Positions 8,453-21,282 of a stretch of DNA of 64,000 nucleotides are shown in pieces (positions within the stretch are counted from its first letter, which is position 1; each line of letters begins with the position of its first letter). Below the pieces are notes generated by a model that saw only the letters and a program-made list of their open reading frames with translations, did not search any database and was not told where the DNA came from. Origin of the DNA: Sinorhizobium sp. BG8 (GTDB lineage Bacteria; Pseudomonadota; Alphaproteobacteria; Rhizobiales; Rhizobiaceae); contig NZ_CP044011.1 of the NCBI RefSeq assembly GCF_016864555.1, forward strand, positions 124,001 to 188,000. Direction: 5' to 3'. A program made the translations under genes and the position numbers.

Positions 8453-9265
8453 TCAGAAGGCGGCGATGACCTGGCCCTTGTAGTGATCTTCGATGAACGC
8501 GCGCGTCTCGGCACTGTTGAGCACCTTGGCAAGCTTGGCGACGCGCGGATCATCCTTGGTTTCGGGACGCGTAACGAGATACTCGCTCCAGACATTGTAG
8601 CCATCCTGGCCACGATCGATCAGCAGCGACTTGGAGATGTCGAGCTTGGCCTCGAACACGTAGTTGCCGTTCAGCGCCGCGAGATCCACCTCACCCAGCG
8701 CGCGCGGCAGAAGGGCCGATTCCAGTTCGACGATCTTCAGGTTCTTCGGGTTCTCGACGATATCCTTCACCGTTGGCAGCGGGTCTTCCGGCGAGGTCAG
8801 TTCCGGTTTGCCGGAAACCTTGATCAGGCCGAGCTTCTGCAAGAGCAGCAGGCCGCGCCCGCCATTGACCGGATCGTTCGGGATCGCGACGGTCGCGCCA
8901 TCCTCAAGCTTGTCGATCGAGTCGATCTTTGTCGAATAGGCAACGAAGGGCTCGATATGGACGGGAACGATCGGAACAAGATCCGTGCCGCGCTGCTTGT
9001 TGTAGTCGTTGAGGAACGGCCTGTACTGGTAGTAATTGGCGTCGAGTTCGCCGGAAACGAGCTGGGCGTTCGGCTGGATGTAGTCCGTGAACACCCGAAC
9101 ATCGAGGTCGAGCCCGTCCTTGGCCAGGATCGGCTTCACGAATTCGAGGATCTCGGCATGCGGGATTGCGGTGGCGCCAACGACCAGCGTCTCGTCGGCC
9201 TTGGCGGATCCGATGGCTGCAAGAGCCAGGCCGGCCGCGATGGTGAGTGTTCTAAGGATGCGCAT
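8453..9265 (-). CDS. metQ: Second MetQ/NlpA family binding protein
   Basis: 270 aa from MRILRTLTIAAGLALAAIGSAKA (signal peptide, no lipobox Cys). The frame extends far upstream, but only this start has a signal sequence and follows metI closely. Landmarks are VFTDYIQPNAQLVSGELDANYYQYRPFL and AIPNDPVNGGRGLLLLQKLGL. It is distinct from the first metQ and probably has a different ligand. It belongs to the second Met-type transporter, encoded together with sulfur oxidoreductases. Confidence 0.9.
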   Translation of the reverse strand: MRILRTLTIAAGLALAAIGSAKADETLVVGATAIPHAEILEFVKPILAKDGLDLDVRVFTDYIQPNAQLVSGELDANYYQYRPFLNDYNKQRGTDLVPIVPVHIEPFVAYSTKIDSIDKLEDGATVAIPNDPVNGGRGLLLLQKLGLIKVSGKPELTSPEDPLPTVKDIVENPKNLKIVELESALLPRALGEVDLAALNGNYVFEAKLDISKSLLIDRGQDGYNVWSEYLVTRPETKDDPRVAKLAKVLNSAETRAFIEDHYKGQVIAAF

Positions 9266-9285
9266 TTGGGTCCTCCGACTGCTGT

Positions 9286-9945
9286 TCATTTGCGGGAAAA
9301 GTGGATGACGAGGCGGTTGCCGCCCGCCTGGATGAGTTGAACGAACACGATGAGGATCGCGACGCAGACCAGCATGATCTCCGTCTGGAACCGGTGGTAT
9401 CCGTAGCGGATGGCGAGATCGCCGAGGCCGCCGCCGCCGATGGCGCCGGACATGGCCGTGTAGTCCACGAGCACGATCGCGGTGACGGTCACGCCGGCAA
9501 GCAGGCTGGGCAGAGCTTCCGGCAGGACGGCGCGCAGGATCGTCTGCGAGGTCGAGGCGCCCATGGCGAGGCTCGCCTCTATGATGCCCCTGTCGACCTC
9601 GCGCAGCGCCGTCTCGACAAGCCGCGCAAAGAAGGGCGACGTACCGACGACGAGCGGAAAGATCACGCCCCGGATGCCGAGTGATGTTCCCGTGACGATG
9701 ACCGTCACCGGCATCAGAACGATCAGCAGGACGATGAACGGTACCGACCGGATTATGTTCAGCACGAAGGAAAGGCTGCCATAGGCGACCGGTGCCTGAA
9801 AAAGCTGCTGGCGTCCGGTGAGGTAAAGCAGGATGCCGAGCGGGAGGCCGACCAGGACGGTCAGAGCCAGGGCTCCCCCGACCATGGCCAGTGTCTGGCC
9901 GAGCGCCGCACCGATGTCGCCCCAATAGAGATTGTCAAACGACAT
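9286..9945 (-). CDS. metI: Second MetI-type ABC permease
   Basis: 219 aa from MSFDNLYWGDIG. This start overlaps the end of the upstream metN by 11 nt, the same coupling seen in other operons here. It has the MetI pattern (MGASTSQTILRAVLPEALPSLLAG; GAIGGGGLGDLAIRYGYHRFQTEIM). It pairs with MetN at 9935-11008 and MetQ at 8453-9265. Confidence 0.92.
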   Translation of the reverse strand: MSFDNLYWGDIGAALGQTLAMVGGALALTVLVGLPLGILLYLTGRQQLFQAPVAYGSLSFVLNIIRSVPFIVLLIVLMPVTVIVTGTSLGIRGVIFPLVVGTSPFFARLVETALREVDRGIIEASLAMGASTSQTILRAVLPEALPSLLAGVTVTAIVLVDYTAMSGAIGGGGLGDLAIRYGYHRFQTEIMLVCVAILIVFVQLIQAGGNRLVIHFSRK

Positions 9946-11008
9946 GGAGCGACCTTTCCGAAAGCTGCTTAGAAGCGGCAGCGAGTTCATCCGCAGGCAC
10001 ACCGCCCTGAAGCTCGACATCGACGCCGCTTGCGCGCAGGCCGGCGATCGCTCCCGCAACATCGCGTCCGCTCAGGGAGACGATGAACTGGGCATAGGGC
10101 ATGTCCCGGATGTGCCCCACGCGACCGGCGAGAATGCTGTAGTCAACCAGGTTTTCCCGGGCGATCCGCCCGAGGATCGGCTTGTGCGCCGTCGCCCCCG
10201 TGAAGGTCAGCCGCGCGGTCCGGCCGGCGAGATCAATCGCTGTCGCACTATCCGGCAAGCCGCCATCGGGTTCGGCCTCGCGAACGAGCCTCAGCGTGGC
10301 CGGATGACGCGGGTGGAGAAAGACGTCGGCGACCGTGCCCTGTTCGACGACATTGCCGCCATCGAGCACCGCGATGCGGTCGCAGGTACGCCGGATCACG
10401 TCCATCTCGTGGGTGATCAGGACAATCGTCACGCCGAGCTCGCGGTTGATCTCTCGAAGCAAATCGAGCACGGCGCCCGTCGTCTGCGGGTCGAGAGCAC
10501 TCGTTGCCTCGTCGCAAAGGAGAACCTTCGGCTCGCAGGCAAGCGCCCGGGCGATGCCGACGCGCTGCTTCTGGCCGCCGGAAAGCTGGCGCGGATACTT
10601 CTGGGCATGTTCGGTGAGGCCGACGCGCGCGAGCAGCGCTGCCACGCGCTCAGCAATTTCGAGCTTTCCGAACTGCCCTGTGAGCTCCAGCGGATAGGCG
10701 ACGTTTCCGGCGACCGTGCGGGCGCTCAGCAGGTTGAAATGCTGGAACACCATGCCGATCGACCGGCGCAGGTTCTGCAGCCGCTCGCCCTTGGCGTCCG
10801 TCACCCGTTCGCCACCGACGAAGACATCACCGCCGGTCGGACGCTCCAGCAGATTGATCAACCGCACGAGCGTCGACTTGCCCGCGCCCGATGAGCCGAT
10901 GATGCCGAAGATCTCGCCTTTCGCCACCGAGAGATCGATGCGGTCGAGCGCGACGACTGGTCCGTCCTTGCCGGCGAAGCTCTTCGTGATGCCTTCGAGC
11001 CTGATCAT
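9935..11008 (-). CDS. metN: Second MetN-type ABC ATPase
   Basis: 357 aa from MIRLEGITKSF, with GGAGGATGAGGCG just upstream; the longer ORF start (11131) lies inside the neighbouring gene. The Walker A is GSSGAGKST, the signature LSGGQKQRVGIARALA and the Walker B VLLCDEATSALD. A C-terminal NIL-type domain is present (residues about 265-357). The gene starts 4 nt after the stop of the upstream oxidoreductase. Confidence 0.92.
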   Translation of the reverse strand: MIRLEGITKSFAGKDGPVVALDRIDLSVAKGEIFGIIGSSGAGKSTLVRLINLLERPTGGDVFVGGERVTDAKGERLQNLRRSIGMVFQHFNLLSARTVAGNVAYPLELTGQFGKLEIAERVAALLARVGLTEHAQKYPRQLSGGQKQRVGIARALACEPKVLLCDEATSALDPQTTGAVLDLLREINRELGVTIVLITHEMDVIRRTCDRIAVLDGGNVVEQGTVADVFLHPRHPATLRLVREAEPDGGLPDSATAIDLAGRTARLTFTGATAHKPILGRIARENLVDYSILAGRVGHIRDMPYAQFIVSLSGRDVAGAIAGLRASGVDVELQGGVPADELAAASKQLSERSLHVV

Positions 11009-11012
11009 CGCC

Positions 11013-12245
11013 TCATCCTCCGCTTGCGCCGATCCGCCACTGATAGGGCGGCGGGGTGCCGTTGACGGCGAAGTCACCGATGATGCGGTGCTTGTAGATA
11101 CGGGGGTTATGGGACGCGAGGGTCCGGGCATTGCGCCAGTGCCTGTCGAGGCCGGCCGGCTTCTTGGTCGCGGAAGCGCCGAGTGCGTCGAAGAGGAGGG
11201 TCGAGGCGTCGAGAATCAGGTCGGAAACGACGGTTTGCGCCTGGGCAGTCTCCAGCTCGGCAAGGGCATTCGCCGTCTCCTCCGCTTCCGGGTCTCTGGA
11301 GAAGTGCGTTTCGAACGCGCGTTCCAGACTGTTTGCGGCCTGAAGCACGATTGCGCTCGCCGCGTAGGCTGCTGCGCGTATGCGGCCGACCACCTGCAGC
11401 ACCTGCGGATCCCGGCTGGAAACAGATGCGGCAGCATGCGTATAGGTGCGCTTGCGCTCGGCAACCGCCTTCGCCACATCATTGGTGATCGCGCGCCCGA
11501 TCCCCGCGAGAGTCGCCAGATGCACCAGCTGGTAGAAGGCGGCACTGTATTTGAAGCGGTCGTCATCGACCACGACCTGGTCCGGAGCAATGGCGACATC
11601 GCGGAACGTTGCCGTGCCGCTCGCGGTCAGCACCTGGCCGAAGCCGTCCCAGTCGTCGATCACCTCGACACCGTCCGCATTGCGCCTCACGGCGACCGAG
11701 ATCCCCTCGCCTTCAGCGTCCGACGCCCCGACATCGATCCAGTCGGCAAACAGCGAACCGGTCGTGTAGTACTTCGCGCCGTTGAGAACGAGCTTGCCGT
11801 TCTTTTCCGCGACCTGGGTGGAAAACCGGGAAAGCGCTGCCCCTTCGCCGATCTCGCTCCACGCGCTGCCGACGATTTCTCCACGGGCGATGCGCTCGAA
11901 CCAGATGGCACGGCGGTCCGGCGAACGGGAATTGAGGATATCCTCGGTAAAGCCGAAATGGGCGCGCAAGGCCTGCGTTACGTTGGAATCCGCTTCGGAC
12001 AGCTCGATCAGCAGGTTGAAGAACTGCGGCAAGGAAGCTCCCCGGCCGCCATTCTCGCGCGGAAGTCGCACGGCCCCGAAGCCGGCCTCCTTCAGCTTGC
12101 GGATGGCTGCGTGAGGGAGGTCCCGCTCCTGATCCCGTCGCGCTGCCTCCTTCGCGATATCCTCGAAGATCGGACGGAAGGGAGCCGACAAGGCCTCATA
12201 GTCGTTTCCCGGGGCGGAGCCCCAGGCATAGGTGAGCTGCGTCAT
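11013..12245 (-). CDS. Acyl-CoA-dehydrogenase-like flavin oxidoreductase (DszC/SfnB type)
   Basis: 410 aa, first gene of the six-gene sulfur operon 12245-5679. The N-terminal helical domain (ALSAPFRPIFEDIAKEAARRDQERDLPHAAI), the GSAWSEIGEGAA flavin-binding block and the LNGAKYYTTGSLFADWI block identify the DszC/SfnB-like branch of the acyl-CoA dehydrogenase fold. It is not a close duplicate of the protein at 7104-8369. DszC-type members are FMNH2-dependent sulfoxidising monooxygenases. That role here is inferred from context. Confidence 0.85.
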   Translation of the reverse strand: MTQLTYAWGSAPGNDYEALSAPFRPIFEDIAKEAARRDQERDLPHAAIRKLKEAGFGAVRLPRENGGRGASLPQFFNLLIELSEADSNVTQALRAHFGFTEDILNSRSPDRRAIWFERIARGEIVGSAWSEIGEGAALSRFSTQVAEKNGKLVLNGAKYYTTGSLFADWIDVGASDAEGEGISVAVRRNADGVEVIDDWDGFGQVLTASGTATFRDVAIAPDQVVVDDDRFKYSAAFYQLVHLATLAGIGRAITNDVAKAVAERKRTYTHAAASVSSRDPQVLQVVGRIRAAAYAASAIVLQAANSLERAFETHFSRDPEAEETANALAELETAQAQTVVSDLILDASTLLFDALGASATKKPAGLDRHWRNARTLASHNPRIYKHRIIGDFAVNGTPPPYQWRIGASGG

Positions 12246-12906: not shown

Positions 12907-15882
12907 ATGAAGAGCCTCAACACGCAGATGCGGCTTGCAGGTGAGCGGCGACAGGTGACCGCTCTATTCTATGACATTGTCGGTTCCACCGAGATTCTGG
13001 TTCGAGGCGATCCGGAACAGTTCTTCCGTTCCGTCACCGCACTCCATCACACAGCCGAAGCGATCGTCGCCAGGCGTGGCGGATTTCTGCACAAGAGGCT
13101 GGGAGATGGAGGGTGCTGCTATTTCGGGTATCCCAAGCAGGCCGAGGATGCTGCCGAAAATGCGGTCGAGGCGGCGCTTGAGCTGATCCAGTCCACGTCG
13201 AAGCGGAACCGGAAATCGGAAGAGACCCTCAGGTTGCGCATCGGGATAGCAACGGGCCTCGTAGTGTTTTCGTCCGAAACCGACGAGATCGTCGGAACGG
13301 CCCCCATACTGGCCTCGCGTCTGCAGGCCGAGGCGGAACCGAATTCGGTACTGGTTGCGGACAGCACCTTCGAACTCACCCGCGGCAAATTCGAATATAG
13401 CCGGGTCGGCGAAGCCAAACTGAAGGGCTTCGGGTCGAACGTAACCCTGTGGCGCCCCGAATCCAAACTGCGCGGCCCCGGTCCGGTTCGACTGGCGCGC
13501 AATGATGGCCAGGCCATGATGGGCCGCGACGAGGAACTGGCGACCCTGGTCGATGCCTGGAACGCCGCACGGGGCAAAACCGGAGGGTCGTTCGCCATTG
13601 TCGGCGAGGCCGGCATTGGAAAGTCGAGGCTTGTCGCGGAACTTCGCCGGAGCATCGATGGCAGCGGTTTGTCCTTCCAATGCAACAAACGCTTTGAAGG
13701 CCAGCCGTTTCATCCGTTCATCGGGTTCCTGGAAACCATGGTTGAAGAACGTGTTCTGAAGGGCGGCAGCGGTGGCCCCCTTCGGGAAGCACTCCAGGCG
13801 GCCGGCATGGAAATCGACGCGGAAGCAGCCGAAATCATCGGAGCGTTTACCGCGGAGAGATCGGGCGCGACGGCGGGAAACATCCTGGTCGCCGACCTGA
13901 CCGGCCGCGCCTTCCGCGGACAGGTGATCGATGCGGCGGTTCGACTGCTGTGCTCTGCTGCGTCGTCCGGTCCTGTCCTGATCGTCTTCGAAGATGTCCA
14001 CTGGGCCGACGAGATGACCTTGGAATTGCTGGACAGCCTGTGTGCGCTCGCGGTCACCTTGCCTATCCTCGTCATTCAGACCTCGCGGGTTGCCCGCGTC
14101 GAAGCGAACGCGACGAGGCTGGCGCTGACGGGCCTTCCGGCCGCTGCGATCCGCGATCTCGTAACGTCGATATGGGATGGGCCACCTCCCGCCGGGCTGT
14201 CCGACTTCATACTGGACCGGTGTGACGGCATGCCTCTCTACGCCGAGGAACTCGCGCATTTCTTCCGAGCAAAGCACGCGTCGGGCCAACCTGTTTCGGA
14301 GTGGAAGGAACTCCTCCTGGAAGGTGGCGTGTCGTCGTTGAACGACCTGCTATCCTCGAGGCTTGCGGGAGCCGGGGCGGCCCGCCGCGTGGCGCAGTTT
14401 GCAAGCGTCATCGGACGGGAATTCACGATCGGATTGCTCGCCAATCTTCTCGATGGAGCGGACCGATCTGGATTGGACCTCGACCTGAAAGTCCTCACCT
14501 CTCATGGCATCATCGAACCATCCTCCACCCAGTCCGACACCTACCAGTTCCGCCATGTGCTCCTGCAAGAGGCCGCCTATAGCAGCCTCCTGAAGAGCGA
14601 TCGGCGAAAAATCCACATGCGGATCGCCAAGCTGCTGGTCGAGAAGTTCGTGCCGCCCCTGCCCGACGCGATCGCGGCGTGGCAATGCGCTGAGGCCGGC
14701 AGGCATGACGATGCCGCTCGGTTCGCGCTGACGGCGGCTGAGGCATGCGTCCTTCGCTCGGCCATGAAGGAAGCGGCGATATCGCTGGACCTCTGCAACA
14801 GGGAAGTCGCATCCCTGTCGAGACGGCACCCGGATCGCCCCGAACTGATCCTGGGCATGTTGCAGCTCCAGGGCGTGGTTGCGACAGCTTTGGAAGGCGA
14901 AGGATCGGAGAGGGCACGCAGGACATATTCGCGCGCGATGCAACTCGTCAGGCGGCATCAGACAGCAACGAGGGAAGCCCACTTTCCAACCTACTGGGGA
15001 TGGTGGTTCACGGCGCCTGATATCCGGACCCAGCAGTCACGGGCCCGCATCCTGGTCGAGGACATGATGACAGTGAACAACCCGGAGACGAGGCTCCAGT
15101 CCTACCACTGCGCCTGGGCCACGGGCTTCCATGCCGGCGAGCACGGCTTTTGCCTGGACTGCGTCGAGAAGGGCCTGGAACTCTACGATGCGGATCGGGC
15201 AGTAAGGAACAGGGCTTTCTTCGGCGGCCATGACGCAAAGGTTTGCGGGCTGGGCGAGAGCGCGCTGTCCCATCTCATCATCGACCAGGCCGACGCGAGC
15301 GAAAAGGCGATCAGCCTGTCCCTGGAATACGCCACCTCGCTAGACCACGTCGGCAGCCTCGTCCATGCGCTTTACTACGCCATCGTCCTTCGTCGATGCC
15401 AGGGCAAGTACGAGGACGTCCACGCGCTCGGCGAACAGATGCTCTCGCTGGCGGAGCGACATGGCCTGGTCGCAAGCCAGGCTCGCGCCAATCTTTATTG
15501 CGGCTGGGCCGAGGCAATGGCCGACTCGATCGATTGCGGCACCAGGCGCTTCGACGAGGGCCTTGCCCTCCAGAAACAGATCGGGACCGACGAAAACCTG
15601 TCGATTCATATCGATATGCAGTCCCAGATCCTGGAGCGGTCGGGTCGGCCGAGACAGGCGCTGGCCCTCATCGACGACGCGATAGCGGGTGGGCGCAAGA
15701 GCGGACAGAGGTTCTGGCTTGCCGAGCTGTACCGGCGGAGGGCGGCATTGAGGCAATTGCTGGGGGCAAGGCCGGCCGAGGTCAAGGCAGACCTCAAGCG
15801 GGCCGTTCAGACGGCCGAGGCGCAGGGGGCCCTTTGGCTCGCGGGGCGCGCCAGGCATGATCTGCAACACCATATCCGCTGA
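12907..15882 (+). CDS. Class III nucleotidyl cyclase / STAND ATPase / TPR regulatory protein
   Basis: 991 aa. Residues about 10-185 are a class III adenylate/guanylate cyclase domain with both metal-binding aspartates (Asp23 in FYDIVGST, Asp67 in LGDGGCCYFG). It is followed by an AAA/STAND ATPase domain with Walker A GEAGIGKSRL (about 232-241) and Walker B LIVFEDVHWAD (about 358-368), then a long alpha-helical TPR-like region. No helix-turn-helix or membrane segment is evident. The product could be cAMP or cGMP; the specificity residues were not assigned. It ends 9 nt before the YcaO gene, so it is probably co-transcribed with it and may sense a signal controlling that pathway. The RBS is weak. 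Confidence 0.85.
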   Translation: MKSLNTQMRLAGERRQVTALFYDIVGSTEILVRGDPEQFFRSVTALHHTAEAIVARRGGFLHKRLGDGGCCYFGYPKQAEDAAENAVEAALELIQSTSKRNRKSEETLRLRIGIATGLVVFSSETDEIVGTAPILASRLQAEAEPNSVLVADSTFELTRGKFEYSRVGEAKLKGFGSNVTLWRPESKLRGPGPVRLARNDGQAMMGRDEELATLVDAWNAARGKTGGSFAIVGEAGIGKSRLVAELRRSIDGSGLSFQCNKRFEGQPFHPFIGFLETMVEERVLKGGSGGPLREALQAAGMEIDAEAAEIIGAFTAERSGATAGNILVADLTGRAFRGQVIDAAVRLLCSAASSGPVLIVFEDVHWADEMTLELLDSLCALAVTLPILVIQTSRVARVEANATRLALTGLPAAAIRDLVTSIWDGPPPAGLSDFILDRCDGMPLYAEELAHFFRAKHASGQPVSEWKELLLEGGVSSLNDLLSSRLAGAGAARRVAQFASVIGREFTIGLLANLLDGADRSGLDLDLKVLTSHGIIEPSSTQSDTYQFRHVLLQEAAYSSLLKSDRRKIHMRIAKLLVEKFVPPLPDAIAAWQCAEAGRHDDAARFALTAAEACVLRSAMKEAAISLDLCNREVASLSRRHPDRPELILGMLQLQGVVATALEGEGSERARRTYSRAMQLVRRHQTATREAHFPTYWGWWFTAPDIRTQQSRARILVEDMMTVNNPETRLQSYHCAWATGFHAGEHGFCLDCVEKGLELYDADRAVRNRAFFGGHDAKVCGLGESALSHLIIDQADASEKAISLSLEYATSLDHVGSLVHALYYAIVLRRCQGKYEDVHALGEQMLSLAERHGLVASQARANLYCGWAEAMADSIDCGTRRFDEGLALQKQIGTDENLSIHIDMQSQILERSGRPRQALALIDDAIAGGRKSGQRFWLAELYRRRAALRQLLGARPAEVKADLKRAVQTAEAQGALWLAGRARHDLQHHIR

Positions 15883-15891
15883 GGCCGGGCG

Positions 15892-17064
15892 ATGGAGGCG
15901 CCGTTGCAGCATCTGCGAAATCTGGAACAGCTCCTGCACCGGCCGCTTTCGCCCCAACCCGAAACCTGGGAGACGGTCCGGCGCATTCTTGCGCGCAGGC
16001 GGGAATTCGGCATTACCAGGCTCGGATCGGTCACCGGGCTCGACCGCGCGGGAATCGAGGTCGTCCAGGTGATACGCCCGGCCTCGCGGTCGGTGGCGGT
16101 CAATATGGGAAAGGGGCTCACTTACGCGGCGGCCGCGATTTCCGGTCTCATGGAATCGCTCGAGGGATGGGCCTCCGAACGCATCGCGGCTGATCGCGCA
16201 TGGATGGCCGAACTTGGGGAGACGGACGGGGACGGTATCTGGTCCCACTTGCCGCCATCCGTTCGCGAAAGTCACGCCGATCTTTCGTGGATCGACGGCT
16301 GGGATCTGCTGTCGGCCGCGCCGCGCCCCGTGCCGCTCGCCTTGGTCGACACCGCCTACATCGTTCCCTCGCCCCATCCGCACGGCTTTGCCCGCGACAC
16401 GACCGGGCTGGCGGCGGGAACCAGCCTGCAGCAGGCAATGGCGCACGCCTGCTTCGAGATACTGGAGCGCCACGCGCACTGCATGGCGATGGCAACGCCG
16501 CACTTCTTCGATCGCTTCCAGATCGACACGGAAGCCATACGCTCGGGCAAGGCCGGCGAGGTGATGGGACGCCTTGCGGGTGCAGGCTTTGCGGTCGGCG
16601 CCTGGACCGTCCCCGCCGGGCACGACCTCCCCATCTACTGGTGCCACGTGATGGAAGGCGCAGGCCACGCTCCGCTCGCTCCCCTTCCCGCCGCCGGGTT
16701 CGGCTGCGACCTCACTCATGATCGCGCACTCTCCAAGGCCCTGCTGGAGGCCTGTCAGTCGCGTCTCGGCGTCATTTCCTCGGCACGCGAAGACGTGAGC
16801 GGCCACCTCTACCAGCCATCAGACCGGCGCGAGATGGTCGCCTGGCGCGAGTCTCTGTCGAAGTCCGCATTGCCCTATTGCGACGCGCCGGAGGACTGCA
16901 GTTCGGGGAGCGCCCTGGAGGCGGCCCTGCACGCCCTGAAGTCGGCAGGCGCGGCGGCGGTGATCGCCGTGGTCCTCCATTCCGACGAAAGCATCCCCCT
17001 CCACGTGGTGAGAATTGTGGCGCCGCCCCTGCAGACCAATCCGGAACTCTACGATGAACAATAG
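15892..17064 (+). CDS. YcaO-family ATP-dependent peptide backbone-modifying enzyme
   Basis: 390 aa. The three ATP/Mg-binding blocks of YcaO proteins are visible: GKGLTYAAAAISGLMESLEG (residues about 72-92), TTGLAAGTSLQQAMAHACFEILERHAH (about 170-196) and GFGCDLTHDRALSKALLEACQSRLG (about 268-292). YcaO enzymes activate backbone amides by phosphorylation, forming azolines or, with TfuA, thioamides. The C-terminus lacks the PxPxP ending common in azoline-forming YcaOs. No E1-like partner or azoline dehydrogenase is encoded nearby. The last 11 nt overlap the tfuA-like gene, a strong sign that the two proteins work together. Confidence 0.92.
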   Translation: MEAPLQHLRNLEQLLHRPLSPQPETWETVRRILARRREFGITRLGSVTGLDRAGIEVVQVIRPASRSVAVNMGKGLTYAAAAISGLMESLEGWASERIAADRAWMAELGETDGDGIWSHLPPSVRESHADLSWIDGWDLLSAAPRPVPLALVDTAYIVPSPHPHGFARDTTGLAAGTSLQQAMAHACFEILERHAHCMAMATPHFFDRFQIDTEAIRSGKAGEVMGRLAGAGFAVGAWTVPAGHDLPIYWCHVMEGAGHAPLAPLPAAGFGCDLTHDRALSKALLEACQSRLGVISSAREDVSGHLYQPSDRREMVAWRESLSKSALPYCDAPEDCSSGSALEAALHALKSAGAAAVIAVVLHSDESIPLHVVRIVAPPLQTNPELYDEQ

Positions 17065-17818
17065 GATCGTCGTCTTCCTGGGACCCACCCTCAGCGCCGG
17101 TGAGGCGCGGTCGCATCTCGATGCCCTCTACCTGCCCCCTGTTTCCCAGGGGGACGTCGCCCGCGCGGTGATCGATCACGCGCCGCGCGCGATCGTCATC
17201 GTGGACGGCGTCTTCGCCCAGCGGCCCGCCGTGCGGCACAAGGAGATACTGTGGGCCATGGCAGCCGGCGTCCGGGTCTTCGGCGCCTCCAGCATGGGAG
17301 CCATCCGCGCCGCCGAACTGGACGAGTGCGGAATGGTCGGTCACGGCTTCGTCTACCGATGGTACCGGCGCACGCCGCTTGCGGACGACGCCGACGTGGC
17401 CGTGCCGATGGCGCCGCCCGAACTCGGTTCCCGTGCGCTCGGCGAAGCCCTTGTCGACATCCGGCTGACATTGAGGAAGGCCGAGCGCGAAGGCGTGATC
17501 CACCGGGAGCTGCGCCTGGGCCTGGAGGAGGCAGCCCGCGCGCTCCACTTCACCGATCGCACCTACGACCGGATCCTTTCCGGCAAAGGACTGGATGAGG
17601 CGGATGGAACCGCCCTGCGCGGCCTTCAAGACTGGATTTCCCAAGGTGTCGTGCACCAGAAGAAGGCGGATGCGATCAGTTTGCTCTCCGCCCTGTCGAA
17701 AAAGACGGGATTACTGGATAAAGATCAGCAATATCAGGATTTTGAGCTGACGGAAGCACTGGCTTCGGACCTTCAATACTCAGGTCTTCTCGACTGTGTC
17801 CTGCGTCACACGCGATAA
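17054..17818 (+). CDS. TfuA-like protein (YcaO partner)
   Basis: 254 aa from MNNRIVVFLGPTLSAGEAR. The TfuA-like domain (VVFLGPTL.., DGVFAQRPAVRHKEILWAMAAGVRVFGASSMGAIRAAEL) fills roughly residues 4-130, followed by a helical C-terminal half. TfuA was first described in trifolitoxin production by Rhizobium. TfuA partners of YcaO are needed for thioamide formation in thioviridamide-type peptides and in archaeal methyl-CoM reductase, probably by delivering sulfur. Here it overlaps the YcaO gene by 11 nt. The predicted reaction, backbone thioamidation, is inferred from the pairing. Confidence 0.92.
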   Translation: MNNRIVVFLGPTLSAGEARSHLDALYLPPVSQGDVARAVIDHAPRAIVIVDGVFAQRPAVRHKEILWAMAAGVRVFGASSMGAIRAAELDECGMVGHGFVYRWYRRTPLADDADVAVPMAPPELGSRALGEALVDIRLTLRKAEREGVIHRELRLGLEEAARALHFTDRTYDRILSGKGLDEADGTALRGLQDWISQGVVHQKKADAISLLSALSKKTGLLDKDQQYQDFELTEALASDLQYSGLLDCVLRHTR

Positions 17819-17862: not shown

Positions 17863-19086
17863 ATGGGGGAAATATTGGACACCATCGCTCTAAGACCTGA
17901 GGCGGGACTTGGCGGAAGGGCCGAGCCATCCCTCGGCACGCGATTCCTGGTCTTCCCGCAACCGCCCTATGTCAGCGGCTACGAGAAGCCGGAAGTCGTC
18001 TGGCTCACGCCGGCCGCCGGCAGGATCCTGGCGGGCCCATCCGACGATCGCATGTACGTCATCGATCCTGTCGAACCCAAGCAACCCTATGCATTTCCAG
18101 TCCTGCCGCCTTATTCGGGCAGCGTCCGGGCGCCCGCCGAGCCCGGGCCGGACGGTCATTTCGATCATATCGTCCCGGGCATGCCGGCATTTCTGTCGGC
18201 GCACAGCTATGCCTGCGCGCGGCGGGTTCTGGACGTCTGCGAGGGCTACGTCGGCCGACGGATCCGCTGGTTCTTCGAGCCGACCATCGCGCGTCTGGAG
18301 ATCGTCCCGCGCATTCTCGACTTCGACAATGCACAGTCGGGCTTCGGCTTCCTCGAACTTGGGGAAAGCGAACCGACAAGGACGGCGTCGTCCTTCGCGC
18401 TCAACTTCGATTCCGTCGCCCACGAGATGGGCCATCTGGTCCTGTTAAGCGAGCTTGGCCTTCTCCTTGGAGACGGCCGGGGCACCGATTTCTTCGCCTA
18501 CCACGAGGCGGTCGCCGACTTTGTCTCCCTGCTCGGGCTTCTCCATTTCGACACGGCCATCGACCGGATCCTGCGCCGCACGAACGGCAATCTCCTGATC
18601 AACAACGAACTCGACCGCTTTGCCGAACTGAGCGACGAACGGCAGATCAGGTCGTTCAGCAACTCGCTCCGGCAGCGGGACGTCAGCGACGAGGTCCATG
18701 ACCGTTCAAAACCCTTCGCGGCGGGCCTGTTCGATTGTGTCGTGGAGATCTACCAGACGCTACTGTTCGACCGCGGCCTGTCGGAGATAGATCCAAGGCT
18801 CTACAGCAACCTCCGCCGGCAGATGGCCTCGGACCTGATCGAGACCAGCCTGAGCGAAACCCGCGCCGACTACGAGCCGAGGCACTTCGCGAGCAAGGCC
18901 GCGCTGCAGGAAGCCCGCGACATTGTCGGCGAAAGCCTGGTCCGCTCCTGGGCCTATCTGGAACCCGACGGCCTGACCTTCGAAACGGCGGCAAACGCCT
19001 TCCTCGACACGGCCCAGACGGGCCGGGCACGACCCTATGTGACGCAGCTCGAAGACTGCATGAAGTGGCGTGAAATCATCCTCTAG
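17863..19086 (+). CDS. Thermolysin-like (gluzincin) HEXXH metallopeptidase in the YcaO-TfuA locus
   Basis: 407 aa, no signal peptide. A zinc site VAHEMGHLVLL (His187, Glu188, His191) is followed by YHEAVADFVSLL, with Glu215 as the likely third ligand. This arrangement resembles M4/M36 gluzincins, where the downstream glutamate sits in an NEAxSD-like motif. A further conserved-looking segment (RSKPFAAGLFDCVVEIYQTLL) could form the active-site wall. The family could not be named. Its place between the YcaO-TfuA genes and two small proteins suggests it matures the modified product, for example by leader or core cleavage, in the cytoplasm. Confidence 0.75.
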   Translation: MGEILDTIALRPEAGLGGRAEPSLGTRFLVFPQPPYVSGYEKPEVVWLTPAAGRILAGPSDDRMYVIDPVEPKQPYAFPVLPPYSGSVRAPAEPGPDGHFDHIVPGMPAFLSAHSYACARRVLDVCEGYVGRRIRWFFEPTIARLEIVPRILDFDNAQSGFGFLELGESEPTRTASSFALNFDSVAHEMGHLVLLSELGLLLGDGRGTDFFAYHEAVADFVSLLGLLHFDTAIDRILRRTNGNLLINNELDRFAELSDERQIRSFSNSLRQRDVSDEVHDRSKPFAAGLFDCVVEIYQTLLFDRGLSEIDPRLYSNLRRQMASDLIETSLSETRADYEPRHFASKAALQEARDIVGESLVRSWAYLEPDGLTFETAANAFLDTAQTGRARPYVTQLEDCMKWREIIL

Positions 19087-19103
19087 AGATCAAGGAGATT
19101 GAG

Positions 19104-19610
19104 ATGGTAGACGAGACAGTACCAGCCCCTCCGATGAAACCCGTATACCACCCGGATTCAATCATTCTTTATGGGGTCAAGCTGAACAGCGATACGGACT
19201 ACGCAACGTTTAGCGTTGGCAACGTGCCCAACACCGGACTGCGCGTCCAGTTGTTCACCGGCAACCAGGGGCAGTCCGCAGCGGAACACTCCATAGTGCT
19301 GGCTTATGGCTATGCATTCGAGGGCCATTGCTACAGATTCGACACCCCGCGTACTTTCATCGTTTTTTCAGGTTTCGACTACGACGCTGTAGGCTGCGGC
19401 TTTGATTCCCCGGCAGCCCTACCCGCTTTCCTGATGCCCTACAGGATGTGGTACGTCCGGTCGTCCGATGAACTGCTTGAACTGAGCCCGAACTTTGGCG
19501 ATGCAAAGGCGCTGATTCTGGACGCGAACTTACCCGGGAAGAGATCGCCGGCCTCCTATGCCATCAACATGTCGATGGCGCATCGCGGCGGTCGCCTCAC
19601 TCACGACTAG
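19104..19610 (+). CDS. Unrecognised 168-aa protein in the YcaO-TfuA locus
   Basis: 168 aa, preceded by AAGGAG 8 nt before the ATG and 17 nt after the metallopeptidase stop, so translated as part of the operon. No signal peptide. It is rich in aromatic residues and beta-prone stretches (AEHSIVLAYGYAFEGHCYRF; TFIVFSGFDYDAVGCGFDS), with two cysteines, and ends MSMAHRGGRLTHD. I do not recognise the family. It may be a large substrate of the YcaO-TfuA pair, a recognition or scaffold protein, or an immunity protein. Confidence 0.7.
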   Translation: MVDETVPAPPMKPVYHPDSIILYGVKLNSDTDYATFSVGNVPNTGLRVQLFTGNQGQSAAEHSIVLAYGYAFEGHCYRFDTPRTFIVFSGFDYDAVGCGFDSPAALPAFLMPYRMWYVRSSDELLELSPNFGDAKALILDANLPGKRSPASYAINMSMAHRGGRLTHD

Positions 19611-19741
19611 CGCAACTCTAGTGCACCAGCACGATGAACCGGCATGGAGTTGCATGCACTCAACAGTCCGACTCACTCGAACAATGCGACAGATACGAGA
19701 TCTTTCTGATCACTACGCTCGCACCCAATGAGGAGAGAACA

Positions 19742-20002
19742 ATGTTTATCCATGGGACCATCAATTTTGGAAAGGCTTTGACAGAAGTATCTGCTACAAG
19801 CGACTACGAATGGAACTATTGCAGGGATTATAAATCGCATGATATAAATAATATAAATGTCAAAAAAGAAAAAATACTTCGATTCGTCACAAAATCACAA
19901 AATGGATCAAAAACGATAAGACTAACAATTTCAGCAAAGGACGAAAAAACAACAGTAATTGAACAATTTTCAGACTGCGATAACATTGACTACCCTGAAT
20001 AA
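19742..20002 (+). CDS. AT-rich small protein (86 aa), candidate substrate or cargo
   Basis: 86 aa from MFIHGTINFG, preceded by GAGGAGAG at good spacing; the frame stays open back to an ATG at 19634, giving 122 aa, but that start lacks an RBS. The protein is polar and lysine-rich with two cysteines (NYCRDY, SDCDNIDYPE). The base composition is strikingly AT-rich (runs such as ATATAAATAATATAAATG) against a GC-rich background, pointing to recent or foreign origin. The family is not recognised. Its position at the end of the YcaO-TfuA operon makes it a candidate precursor or target. Confidence 0.6.
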   Translation: MFIHGTINFGKALTEVSATSDYEWNYCRDYKSHDINNINVKKEKILRFVTKSQNGSKTIRLTISAKDEKTTVIEQFSDCDNIDYPE

Positions 20003-20316: not shown

Positions 20317-21282
20317 CTAGAAGCTTGGACCAGGCCCGTCCTTGTGACGGTCGGCTGCTGTCGCAGGTGTTGATGCAGGCGACGCCAGCAGGCCGTCATC
20401 CAGGAAGCGCAGGCAGAGGTCGATGCCCTGCTCCATTGTCGTCTTCGGCTCAATCCCGATTGCGGACTTCAGGCCGTCATTCCAGAACCCCCATGCCGAG
20501 GGAGGCGTGACGGCAGCCTTCGGGATAAGTCGCGCGGCAGGGTAGCGAGCGGCGAGAAGCTGGGCGGCATCGCGCATCCTGCGCTTGTCACCGACGACGT
20601 TGAAGACTCTGCTTCCGGCAATCTCCGCATCGAGCATGCGCACCGTGACGTCCGTGGCGTCTTCCACCCAGGTCCAGTCGACGGGGTCGGGATAGTCGGG
20701 AAAGACGATCTCGGTGTCCCCGCGGTGCGCGGCTTCCACCATCTCCTGCATTTCTCGCCAGCCCCGGGCTCGGCCCGGCCCGTAGACATACCCGTAACGC
20801 AGACCGATGAACGTTGTATCGGGATGGTTTGGCGCAACGCAGTTCGCCAGATGCTCGCCATATGCTTTTGTGGCGCCGTAGACGCTTCCCGGCTGAGGTA
20901 CCGATCGATCCCCGAAGCTGGTGTCCGCGCCCCCAAGGGCTGCAACCGAGCTGGCGTAGATGATGCGTGAGGCGCCTGCGGCCAGCGCTTCGGCGAAGAT
21001 ATGGGCCGTGCCGAGGGCATTGACGCGCGTGGCGGCGACGATGTCGGATCCTGACTCGAGGGTCAGAAGTGCTGCCAGGTGGATTACGGCTTGTGGTGCA
21101 AAGGCCTGCAGCGCATCGCGGACTGCATCGTGATCCGAGATGTCGCAGGCTGACGCCTCGCATCCAGCCGGCAAATGTGACCCGGCCCGATCCATCCCGA
21201 GCACCTGATGACCACTGCCGGCCAGCCGGGTGCAGACGCTGCTGCCCAGAAATCCGGCCGCTCCGGTAACCGCGATGCGCAT
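20317..21282 (-). CDS. NAD-dependent epimerase/dehydratase (extended SDR)
   Basis: 321 aa. The N-terminal Rossmann motif is TGAAGFLGSSV (TGxxGxxG) and the catalytic motif YGATKAYGEHL (YxxxK), with SSVAALGG supplying the serine: an extended SDR. Family members epimerise nucleotide sugars or oxidise sugar acids such as erythronate or uronates. It is the last gene of the minus-strand run ATPase-IclR-epimerase and is probably co-regulated with the catabolic genes at 25069-29534. The substrate is unknown. Confidence 0.82.
   Translation of the reverse strand: MRIAVTGAAGFLGSSVCTRLAGSGHQVLGMDRAGSHLPAGCEASACDISDHDAVRDALQAFAPQAVIHLAALLTLESGSDIVAATRVNALGTAHIFAEALAAGASRIIYASSVAALGGADTSFGDRSVPQPGSVYGATKAYGEHLANCVAPNHPDTTFIGLRYGYVYGPGRARGWREMQEMVEAAHRGDTEIVFPDYPDPVDWTWVEDATDVTVRMLDAEIAGSRVFNVVGDKRRMRDAAQLLAARYPAARLIPKAAVTPPSAWGFWNDGLKSAIGIEPKTTMEQGIDLCLRFLDDGLLASPASTPATAADRHKDGPGPSF

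Follow-up and report, generated by a model that had tools for sequence, protein, structure and literature searches.

A YcaO-TfuA operon of rhizobia encoding a candidate protein substrate with a variable domain and a constant tail

ATP-dependent activation of backbone amides by YcaO proteins, with sulfur delivered by TfuA, is the accepted reaction both in McrA (PMC5589413) and in thiovarsolin biosynthesis (PMC6511847). TfuA has been described as a hydrolase that works with a ThiS-like carrier (PMC13063428). Glycine thioamidation of McrA provides a precedent for the modification of a protein, the substrate being an enzyme subunit (PMC5589413). Escherichia coli YcaO likewise acts on a whole folded protein, uL16, but it does so without TfuA and on a target that is ribosomal, conserved and unlinked (PMC13063428). 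The thiovarsolin cluster associates a YcaO protein (VarY) and a TfuA protein (VarT) with VarA, a substrate that ends in imperfect tandem repeats; related precursors range from no repeat to five (PMC6511847). The accessible part of that description presents an actinobacterial cluster with no cluster-encoded protease, and speaks of no folded hypervariable domain, cyclase or additional partner protein. A survey counted TfuA-related clusters in Rhizobium (over 500) and other Proteobacteria, so that the type of locus considered here had already been seen as a cluster (PMC8120280). Precursors were sought there as short peptides with RiPPER, and the peptide families named in the portion of the survey available are berninamycin-like, CCRG-2-like, albusnodin-like and Nif11-like.

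The window, that is the whole stretch of 64,000 nucleotides of Sinorhizobium sp. BG8 DNA that was analysed, contains an operon with the following genes, given in their order:

12907-15882, plus strand: cyclase/AAA, a 991-residue class III cyclase with an AAA ATPase, probable regulator (PF00211, 2e-20; PF13191, 7e-23)
15892-17064, plus strand: YcaO, 390 residues (PF02624, 1e-46; TIGR00702 above cut-off)
17054-17818, plus strand: TfuA, 254 residues (PF07812, 1e-41)
17863-19086, plus strand: MP, a 407-residue HExxH protein, gluzincin-like, probable maturation protease (HEMGH at residues 187-191, HExxAD at 214-219)
19104-19610, plus strand: g5, 168 residues, candidate YcaO-TfuA substrate (position after MP in related loci; alignments)
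19742-20002, plus strand: g6, 86 residues, AT-rich and fast-evolving, probable cognate partner of g5 (GC content, position in Rhizobium, co-variation)

The YcaO and TfuA genes are adjacent, and PF02624 and PF07812 both score above their Pfam cut-offs in the window. YcaO carries the motifs ExxER (residue 189) and ExxQxR (residue 286). Both proteins resemble the models of the McrA system but fall below the equivalog cut-offs: YcaO matches TIGR03266 (McrA-glycine thioamidation) at 7e-34, with 117 bits against a cut-off of 365, and TfuA matches NF033432 at 4e-59, with 199.5 bits against 235.2. TfuA is single-copy in the host genome, as judged by a search of that genome. The cyclase/AAA protein, which would regulate the operon, aligns along most of TIGR03903, the TOMM kinase/cyclase fusion (E 2e-112, nearly full length, under the curated cut-off), and in a comparison with a defence library its resemblance was limited to the cyclase domain, to Pycsar cyclases. 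TOMM systems differ, however, in their partner proteins, since among the operon genes no E1-like (C protein) or dehydrogenase partner adjoining YcaO was found with Pfam and NCBIfam.

The neighbours of the operon include genes for an epimerase, an IclR regulator, ABC transport and an acyl-CoA dehydrogenase. Beyond g6 lies a gene for an NAD-dependent epimerase on the opposite strand (20320-21282), leaving g5 and g6 as the final genes of the operon. Upstream, positions 8456-12245 of the minus strand encode a member of the acyl-CoA dehydrogenase family as well as a methionine-type ABC transporter (NlpA lipoprotein, permease and NIL-domain ATPase); the transporter genes possibly serve sulfur assimilation.

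A sequence-only reading of this DNA had singled out the two final genes for their good ribosome-binding sites, for two cysteines each and for belonging to no recognisable family. That description is accurate: AAGGAG precedes g5 (19092-19097) and GAGGAGA precedes g6 (19730-19736), each protein has two Cys, no Pfam or NCBIfam model reaches its curated cut-off with either of them, and no toxin or immunity family is matched. The same reading took either gene for the possible target of YcaO-TfuA, and the comparison of homologous loci had been set beforehand as the test. This comparison strongly revealed a conserved YcaO-TfuA core followed by a variable operon end.

Related loci were gathered with MP. 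Within the order, 34 of the 397 genomes searched had a match, about 20 of them strong, and a search of a plasmid collection returned 127 records, nearly all from Rhizobium; g5 homologues occur in 74 plasmid records. A further scan, with one genome per species, used a repeat-type MP (see below) and kept the best 80 of 351 relatives, so that the counts lean toward the repeat type; a few loci are present twice under different ids. YcaO lies upstream of MP in all 100 annotated MP loci and TfuA in 99. The exception, L130 (a Kiloniellales MAG), has a 949-residue YcaO ORF without a separate TfuA, possibly a YcaO-TfuA fusion. Of the 94 loci that have at least 900 bases left, 91 carry a g5 homologue directly after MP; the other three (L128, L129 and L131, from Leisingera and relatives) hold YcaO-TfuA-MP without g5 and have apparently lost or relocated the candidate substrate gene. 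The earlier remark that no short precursor is evident is borne out, since across 28 divergent loci no short ORF was conserved in the operon other than shadows of the cyclase genes. On the strength of these linkage counts and of the lack of another conserved short ORF, g5 is the sole conserved non-enzymatic gene of the operon in the Alphaproteobacteria sampled. Relatives sought outside the Alphaproteobacteria were merely remote peptidase-like matches, without YcaO, TfuA or g5, and viral contigs held no relative of g5 or MP.

The loci fall into two kinds. Window-type loci belong to Rhizobium, Ensifer, Sinorhizobium, Mesorhizobium and Phyllobacterium and have the long cyclase protein upstream. 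They are found also on plasmids of trifolitoxin and phazolicin producers, L148 (R. anhuiense T24) and L146 (Rhizobium sp. Pop5). Most Ruegeria and Leisingera loci have a second class III cyclase of about 600 residues, convergent and directly after g5 (L072:10036-11862 on the minus strand, L088, L096, L103), so that a cyclase is nearby in both kinds of locus. In repeat-type loci (e.g. L047:5620-6984) TfuA has about 450 residues owing to a C-terminal extension, against about 250 in the window type; the extension from one repeat-type locus gave a weak match, 2e-4 and below cut-off, to TIGR04500 (putative peptide maturation, PpiC-related).

The g5 protein appears to consist of a folded N-domain and a C-terminal tail, with two regions of particular concern:

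19176-19283, plus strand: g5 variable loop, residues 25-60, the place of long inserts in other members (lowest conservation; insert variation in Ruegeria)
19530-19607, plus strand: g5 constant tail, residues 143-168, LPGKRSPASYAINMSMAHRGGRLTHD, predicted modified core (invariant residues, low pLDDT, repeats in relatives)

Window-type and repeat-type g5 share the N-domain motifs LLFGR, ARIYGFxYEG, FLVHG, WxYD and EQVLL. AlphaFold2 models of the two (pLDDT 68 and 64, respectively) place the main strands and helices of the N-domain in the same order and leave the tails without structure, with pLDDT below 50 at residues 147-165 of the window g5 and 162-210 of the repeat-type protein. It must be noted that these models are of moderate confidence, being built on shallow alignments of window and genome-scan sequences, and that low pLDDT is not proof of disorder. 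The g5 model had no neighbour among PDB structures (best E 0.42). Proteusin-like large leaders, too, have a long, structured N-domain ahead of the region that is modified, but g5 matches no known leader family.

Along 20 Rhizobium-type sequences the least conserved stretches of g5 are residues 49-60 (0.40) and 97-108, and the best conserved is 145-156. The tail motif PGxRSPxxY is constant in all 22 window-type loci, and P144, G145, R147, S148, P149 and Y152 do not vary among 21 window-type sequences whose whole proteins are down to 27% identical with the window g5. The g5 proteins of the other kind have tandem 5-7-residue Gly-containing repeats in place of this tail in 80 of 82 non-redundant sequences, their repeat scores being reached by none of 300 shuffles; no window-type g5 (0 of 22) is repetitive. 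The units have five residues (SGAKV, SGARV, SGSRV, GASVR, GMSAR, GGKVG), six (YSGGKA, GSGANL, MTGRSM) or seven (SRSGGAL). Among 13 repeat types, Gly is present in all, a basic residue in 11, exactly one bulky hydrophobic residue in 11 and Cys in none. Identical residues are nearly always encoded by differing DNA: the units are all distinct in 7/7, 6/6 and 9/9 copies and their DNA identity is 67-84% in eight of nine loci, L055 (94%) being the exception. This indicates that the peptide is under selection and that the copies do not reflect recent DNA duplication. In L130 the end of g5 is non-repetitive, YSGKFTRAKKGGRHNNWSD.

Could these repeats be structural pentapeptide repeats, forming a beta-helix, with the target of YcaO-TfuA elsewhere? 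Pentapeptide-repeat proteins (PF00805) likewise consist mostly of 5-residue repeats, and the five-residue units of g5 relatives do match such models weakly, once above the Pfam cut-off (L046 g5, 24.1 bits). However, 6- and 7-residue units exist too, the tails are Gly-rich, basic and so short that they allow no more than about two coils, and they are predicted to be disordered, the repeat tail being modelled without structure. Window-type g5 is free of repeats altogether, and the linkage to YcaO-TfuA would be left unexplained. We consider this explanation quite improbable.

Which residue would be modified? The window tail contains no Cys, and thus departs from the Cys/Ser/Thr-rich core that serves as a criterion of TOMM systems. 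The cysteines of g5, to which the sequence-only reading had drawn attention, are rejected as the modification site: both are lost together in L044 (EGHTY, DSGYD), in which YcaO, TfuA and the tail are kept.

Linkage, the constant or repeated tail, the disorder prediction and the lack of another short conserved ORF make g5 the best candidate for the substrate, with its tail as the putative modified core. In the scheme that we propose, g5 would be held through a folded domain, about 140 residues long, that serves recognition, leaving the disordered C-terminal core free. YcaO would activate backbone amides with ATP and sulfur would come from TfuA, most likely converting to a thioamide a glycine in the tail, which would be G145 in the window g5 and, in relatives, the Gly of each repeat unit. 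MP would then act on the modified tail by cutting it, and g6 would be a strain-specific partner co-evolving with the variable N-domain. As a whole, the explanation that the operon makes a YcaO-TfuA-modified protein with g5 as substrate and g6 as partner seems to us reasonably probable; thioamidation of g5 is its predicted chemistry.

The assignment of MP as a probable maturation protease derives from its motifs. Nineteen aligned homologues all retain H-E-x-x-H together with the E and D downstream of it, a combination characteristic of gluzincin peptidases. One database record labels MP a peptidase M4 family protein; Pfam offers no family for MP, and among PDB sequences it gave just unrelated short matches and one to angiotensin-converting enzyme that was brief and at the level of the motif. 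With a thermolysin-like preference, MP would cleave on the N-terminal side of the one bulky hydrophobic residue that nearly every repeat unit has. The available part of one report describes certain HExxH enzymes of RiPP clusters as oxidative (PMC12636437). The MP gene is apparently broken in L181 (R. etli IE4771; internal stop); in L183 (RCAM0610) it is unannotated and split, and YcaO is unannotated too. In both, g5 and g6 are still open.

Four Rhizobium plasmid loci (L037, L139, L140 and L145) depart from the usual linkage in that MP and a repeat-tailed g5 occur without YcaO and TfuA; three of the four replicons lack TfuA entirely. These are MP-g5-small protein operons with 7-residue SRSGG repeats, a cyclase lies upstream in three of the four, and in both annotated records the operon adjoins acetyl-CoA carboxylase/5-oxoprolinase genes. 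It follows that modification of the g5 tail would be dispensable in some lineages. The retention of MP and g5 in this branch also lends something to the idea that YcaO-TfuA in reality modify an unlinked protein or a short peptide missed by annotation, with g5 as a scaffold for the two enzymes. Indeed, E. coli YcaO modifies uL16 with no short precursor gene adjoining it (PMC13063428). Against this stand the position of g5 as the sole conserved non-enzymatic gene and the fact that the tail is its best conserved part in Rhizobium. A scaffold role therefore appears unlikely, and g5 is retained as the candidate substrate.

The other final gene, g6, is as sharply AT-rich as had been stated: its GC content is 32.6% (GC3 29.9%) against 62.5% for the window and 56.6% for g5. 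An in-frame upstream ATG at 19634 would extend the protein to 122 residues with an N-terminus unlike that of other g6; the start at 19742 is preferred because it better fits the ribosome-binding site and the N-termini of other g6. In the window 131 bases (19611-19741) separate g5 from g6, against 20-30 in other Rhizobium loci. A g6 family occupies the equivalent position in Rhizobium (38 plasmid records, all Rhizobium). In all compared loci its GC content (0.46-0.53) is lower than that of MP (0.57-0.64); the lowest value, 0.33, is that of the window g6. That the window g6 is homologous to this family is at most suggested by its score of 14.9 bits, the highest of 500 shuffled decoys having reached 7.5; a profile-profile comparison with Rhizobium g6 was not significant, and the plasmid collection gave no match.

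A role of g6 as the modified target might be imagined from its place in the same operon, its variability and its low GC content. Yet it is missing from most loci, including the Ensifer and Mesorhizobium window-type and Ruegeria-type loci examined (in Ruegeria the interval from g5 to the next gene is too small for it). The g6 proteins of the first nine Rhizobium loci compared are 13-64% identical and share no constant core motif, and g6 co-varies with the N-domain of g5. We therefore reject g6 as the substrate; very likely it is not the target, and the chance that it is appears slight indeed. Its scarcity, divergence and co-variation point instead to a probable strain-specific partner that co-evolves with the g5 N-domain. 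Thus, of the early proposal that either gene could be the target, the half concerning g5, with its core-like C-terminus, has been strengthened and the half concerning g6 has not.

The co-variation is seen in 18 Rhizobium window-type loci, with mean identities of 76 for YcaO, 83 for MP, 65 for the g5 N-domain, 84 for the last 30 residues of g5 and 34 for g6. The identity of g6 tracks that of the N-domain with MP and YcaO held constant (partial Mantel r 0.77, p 2e-4); conversely, it does not track MP once the N-domain is held constant. Pairs of strains illustrate this. Between R. johnstonii 3841 and R. leguminosarum 22B (L034/L178), identity is 100% for MP, 98% for YcaO, 74% for the N-domain, 93% for the tail and 44% for g6. 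For Vaf10 and T24 (L035/L148), the figures are MP 95, YcaO 92, N-domain 53, tail 83 and g6 17%. In DNA, g5-g6 is roughly 45-75% identical between Rhizobium strains, against 90-100% in the flanks and 92-100% in YcaO/MP; the drop begins at g5 and stops with g6 or just past it, and the downstream flank is back to 90-100%. A co-varying, variable gene pair between conserved flanks is the pattern of polymorphic toxin-immunity type cassettes, and the Rhizobium window-type loci show it.

In Ruegeria, which has no g6, variation takes the form of g5 inserts of 36 versus 133 residues although MP is 98% identical, and the long insert resembles phage tail-fibre and head-decoration families (E down to 1e-10). 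Many repeat-type g5 carry, inserted at the variable loop, a domain of about 90 residues that is related to PHROG 2647, 11518 and 17264 and that close relatives lack. It is found in Ruegeria, Aurantimonas and Mesorhizobium (L097:9321-10256, L089:6436-7281, L095) and, by sequence pattern, in L073, L077, L126 and L137.

A variable putative leader over a constant putative core is the reverse of ordinary RiPP precursors. This arrangement is unlike a plain leader/core precursor and counts against the main explanation. The repeats and MP suggest that short peptides are released; an intact protein as the active form is suggested by the variable N-domain together with g6. It is possible, though less likely than the main explanation, that tail-modified g5 stays intact, with the tail as a constant functional element and with the N-domain pairing with g6 in a strain-specific manner, for recognition or in the way of a toxin and its immunity protein. 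The sharp drop in g5-g6 identity between near-identical flanks, the tracking of the N-domain by g6 and the Ruegeria inserts all argue for it, and thioamidating YcaO enzymes with protein substrates are known (PMC5589413, PMC13063428). Exact tandem repeats and a dedicated HExxH protein, however, resemble multi-core peptide release; no secretion signal or toxicity is known, no exporter gene conserved with the operon was seen in related loci, and g6 is so often missing. More tentatively still, YcaO-TfuA might mark the constant tail of a polymorphic protein that forms with g6 an exchangeable specificity cassette, as a thioamide-tailed recognition or competition system. Such a system, itself rather doubtful, would keep enzymes and tail fixed and swap the recognition part between strains.

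Returning to g5 as a modified substrate, the system, as judged from its genes, is a variant of the thioamide systems built on YcaO-TfuA in which the pattern of variation is inverted. Like the thiovarsolins, it joins YcaO-TfuA to a putative substrate that ends in repeats or, as in the window, is repeat-free. It differs from the McrA system in that its candidate substrate is a linked variable protein. The survey of TfuA-related clusters, in its accessible part, does not name g5 among its peptide families and gives no account of MP, g5, the repeats or the cassette (PMC8120280). No description of the YcaO-TfuA-MP-g5 combination, nor a named substrate for this YcaO-TfuA family, was found in the open literature, subscription papers lying outside the scope of the search.

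TfuA-related peptide-modification clusters are common in rhizobia, as the available part of the survey indicates (PMC8120280), and once a candidate substrate is defined and its site predicted, the nature of their product can be put to a test. If the proposal is true, the constant tail under a variable N-domain would represent a further case of protein-level thioamidation by YcaO, after McrA and uL16, or alternatively a new class of precursor with inverted variation. Either would explain why searches for short peptides missed g5. The exchange cassette suggests competition or recognition between closely related rhizobia, and such competition could matter for nodulation competitiveness.
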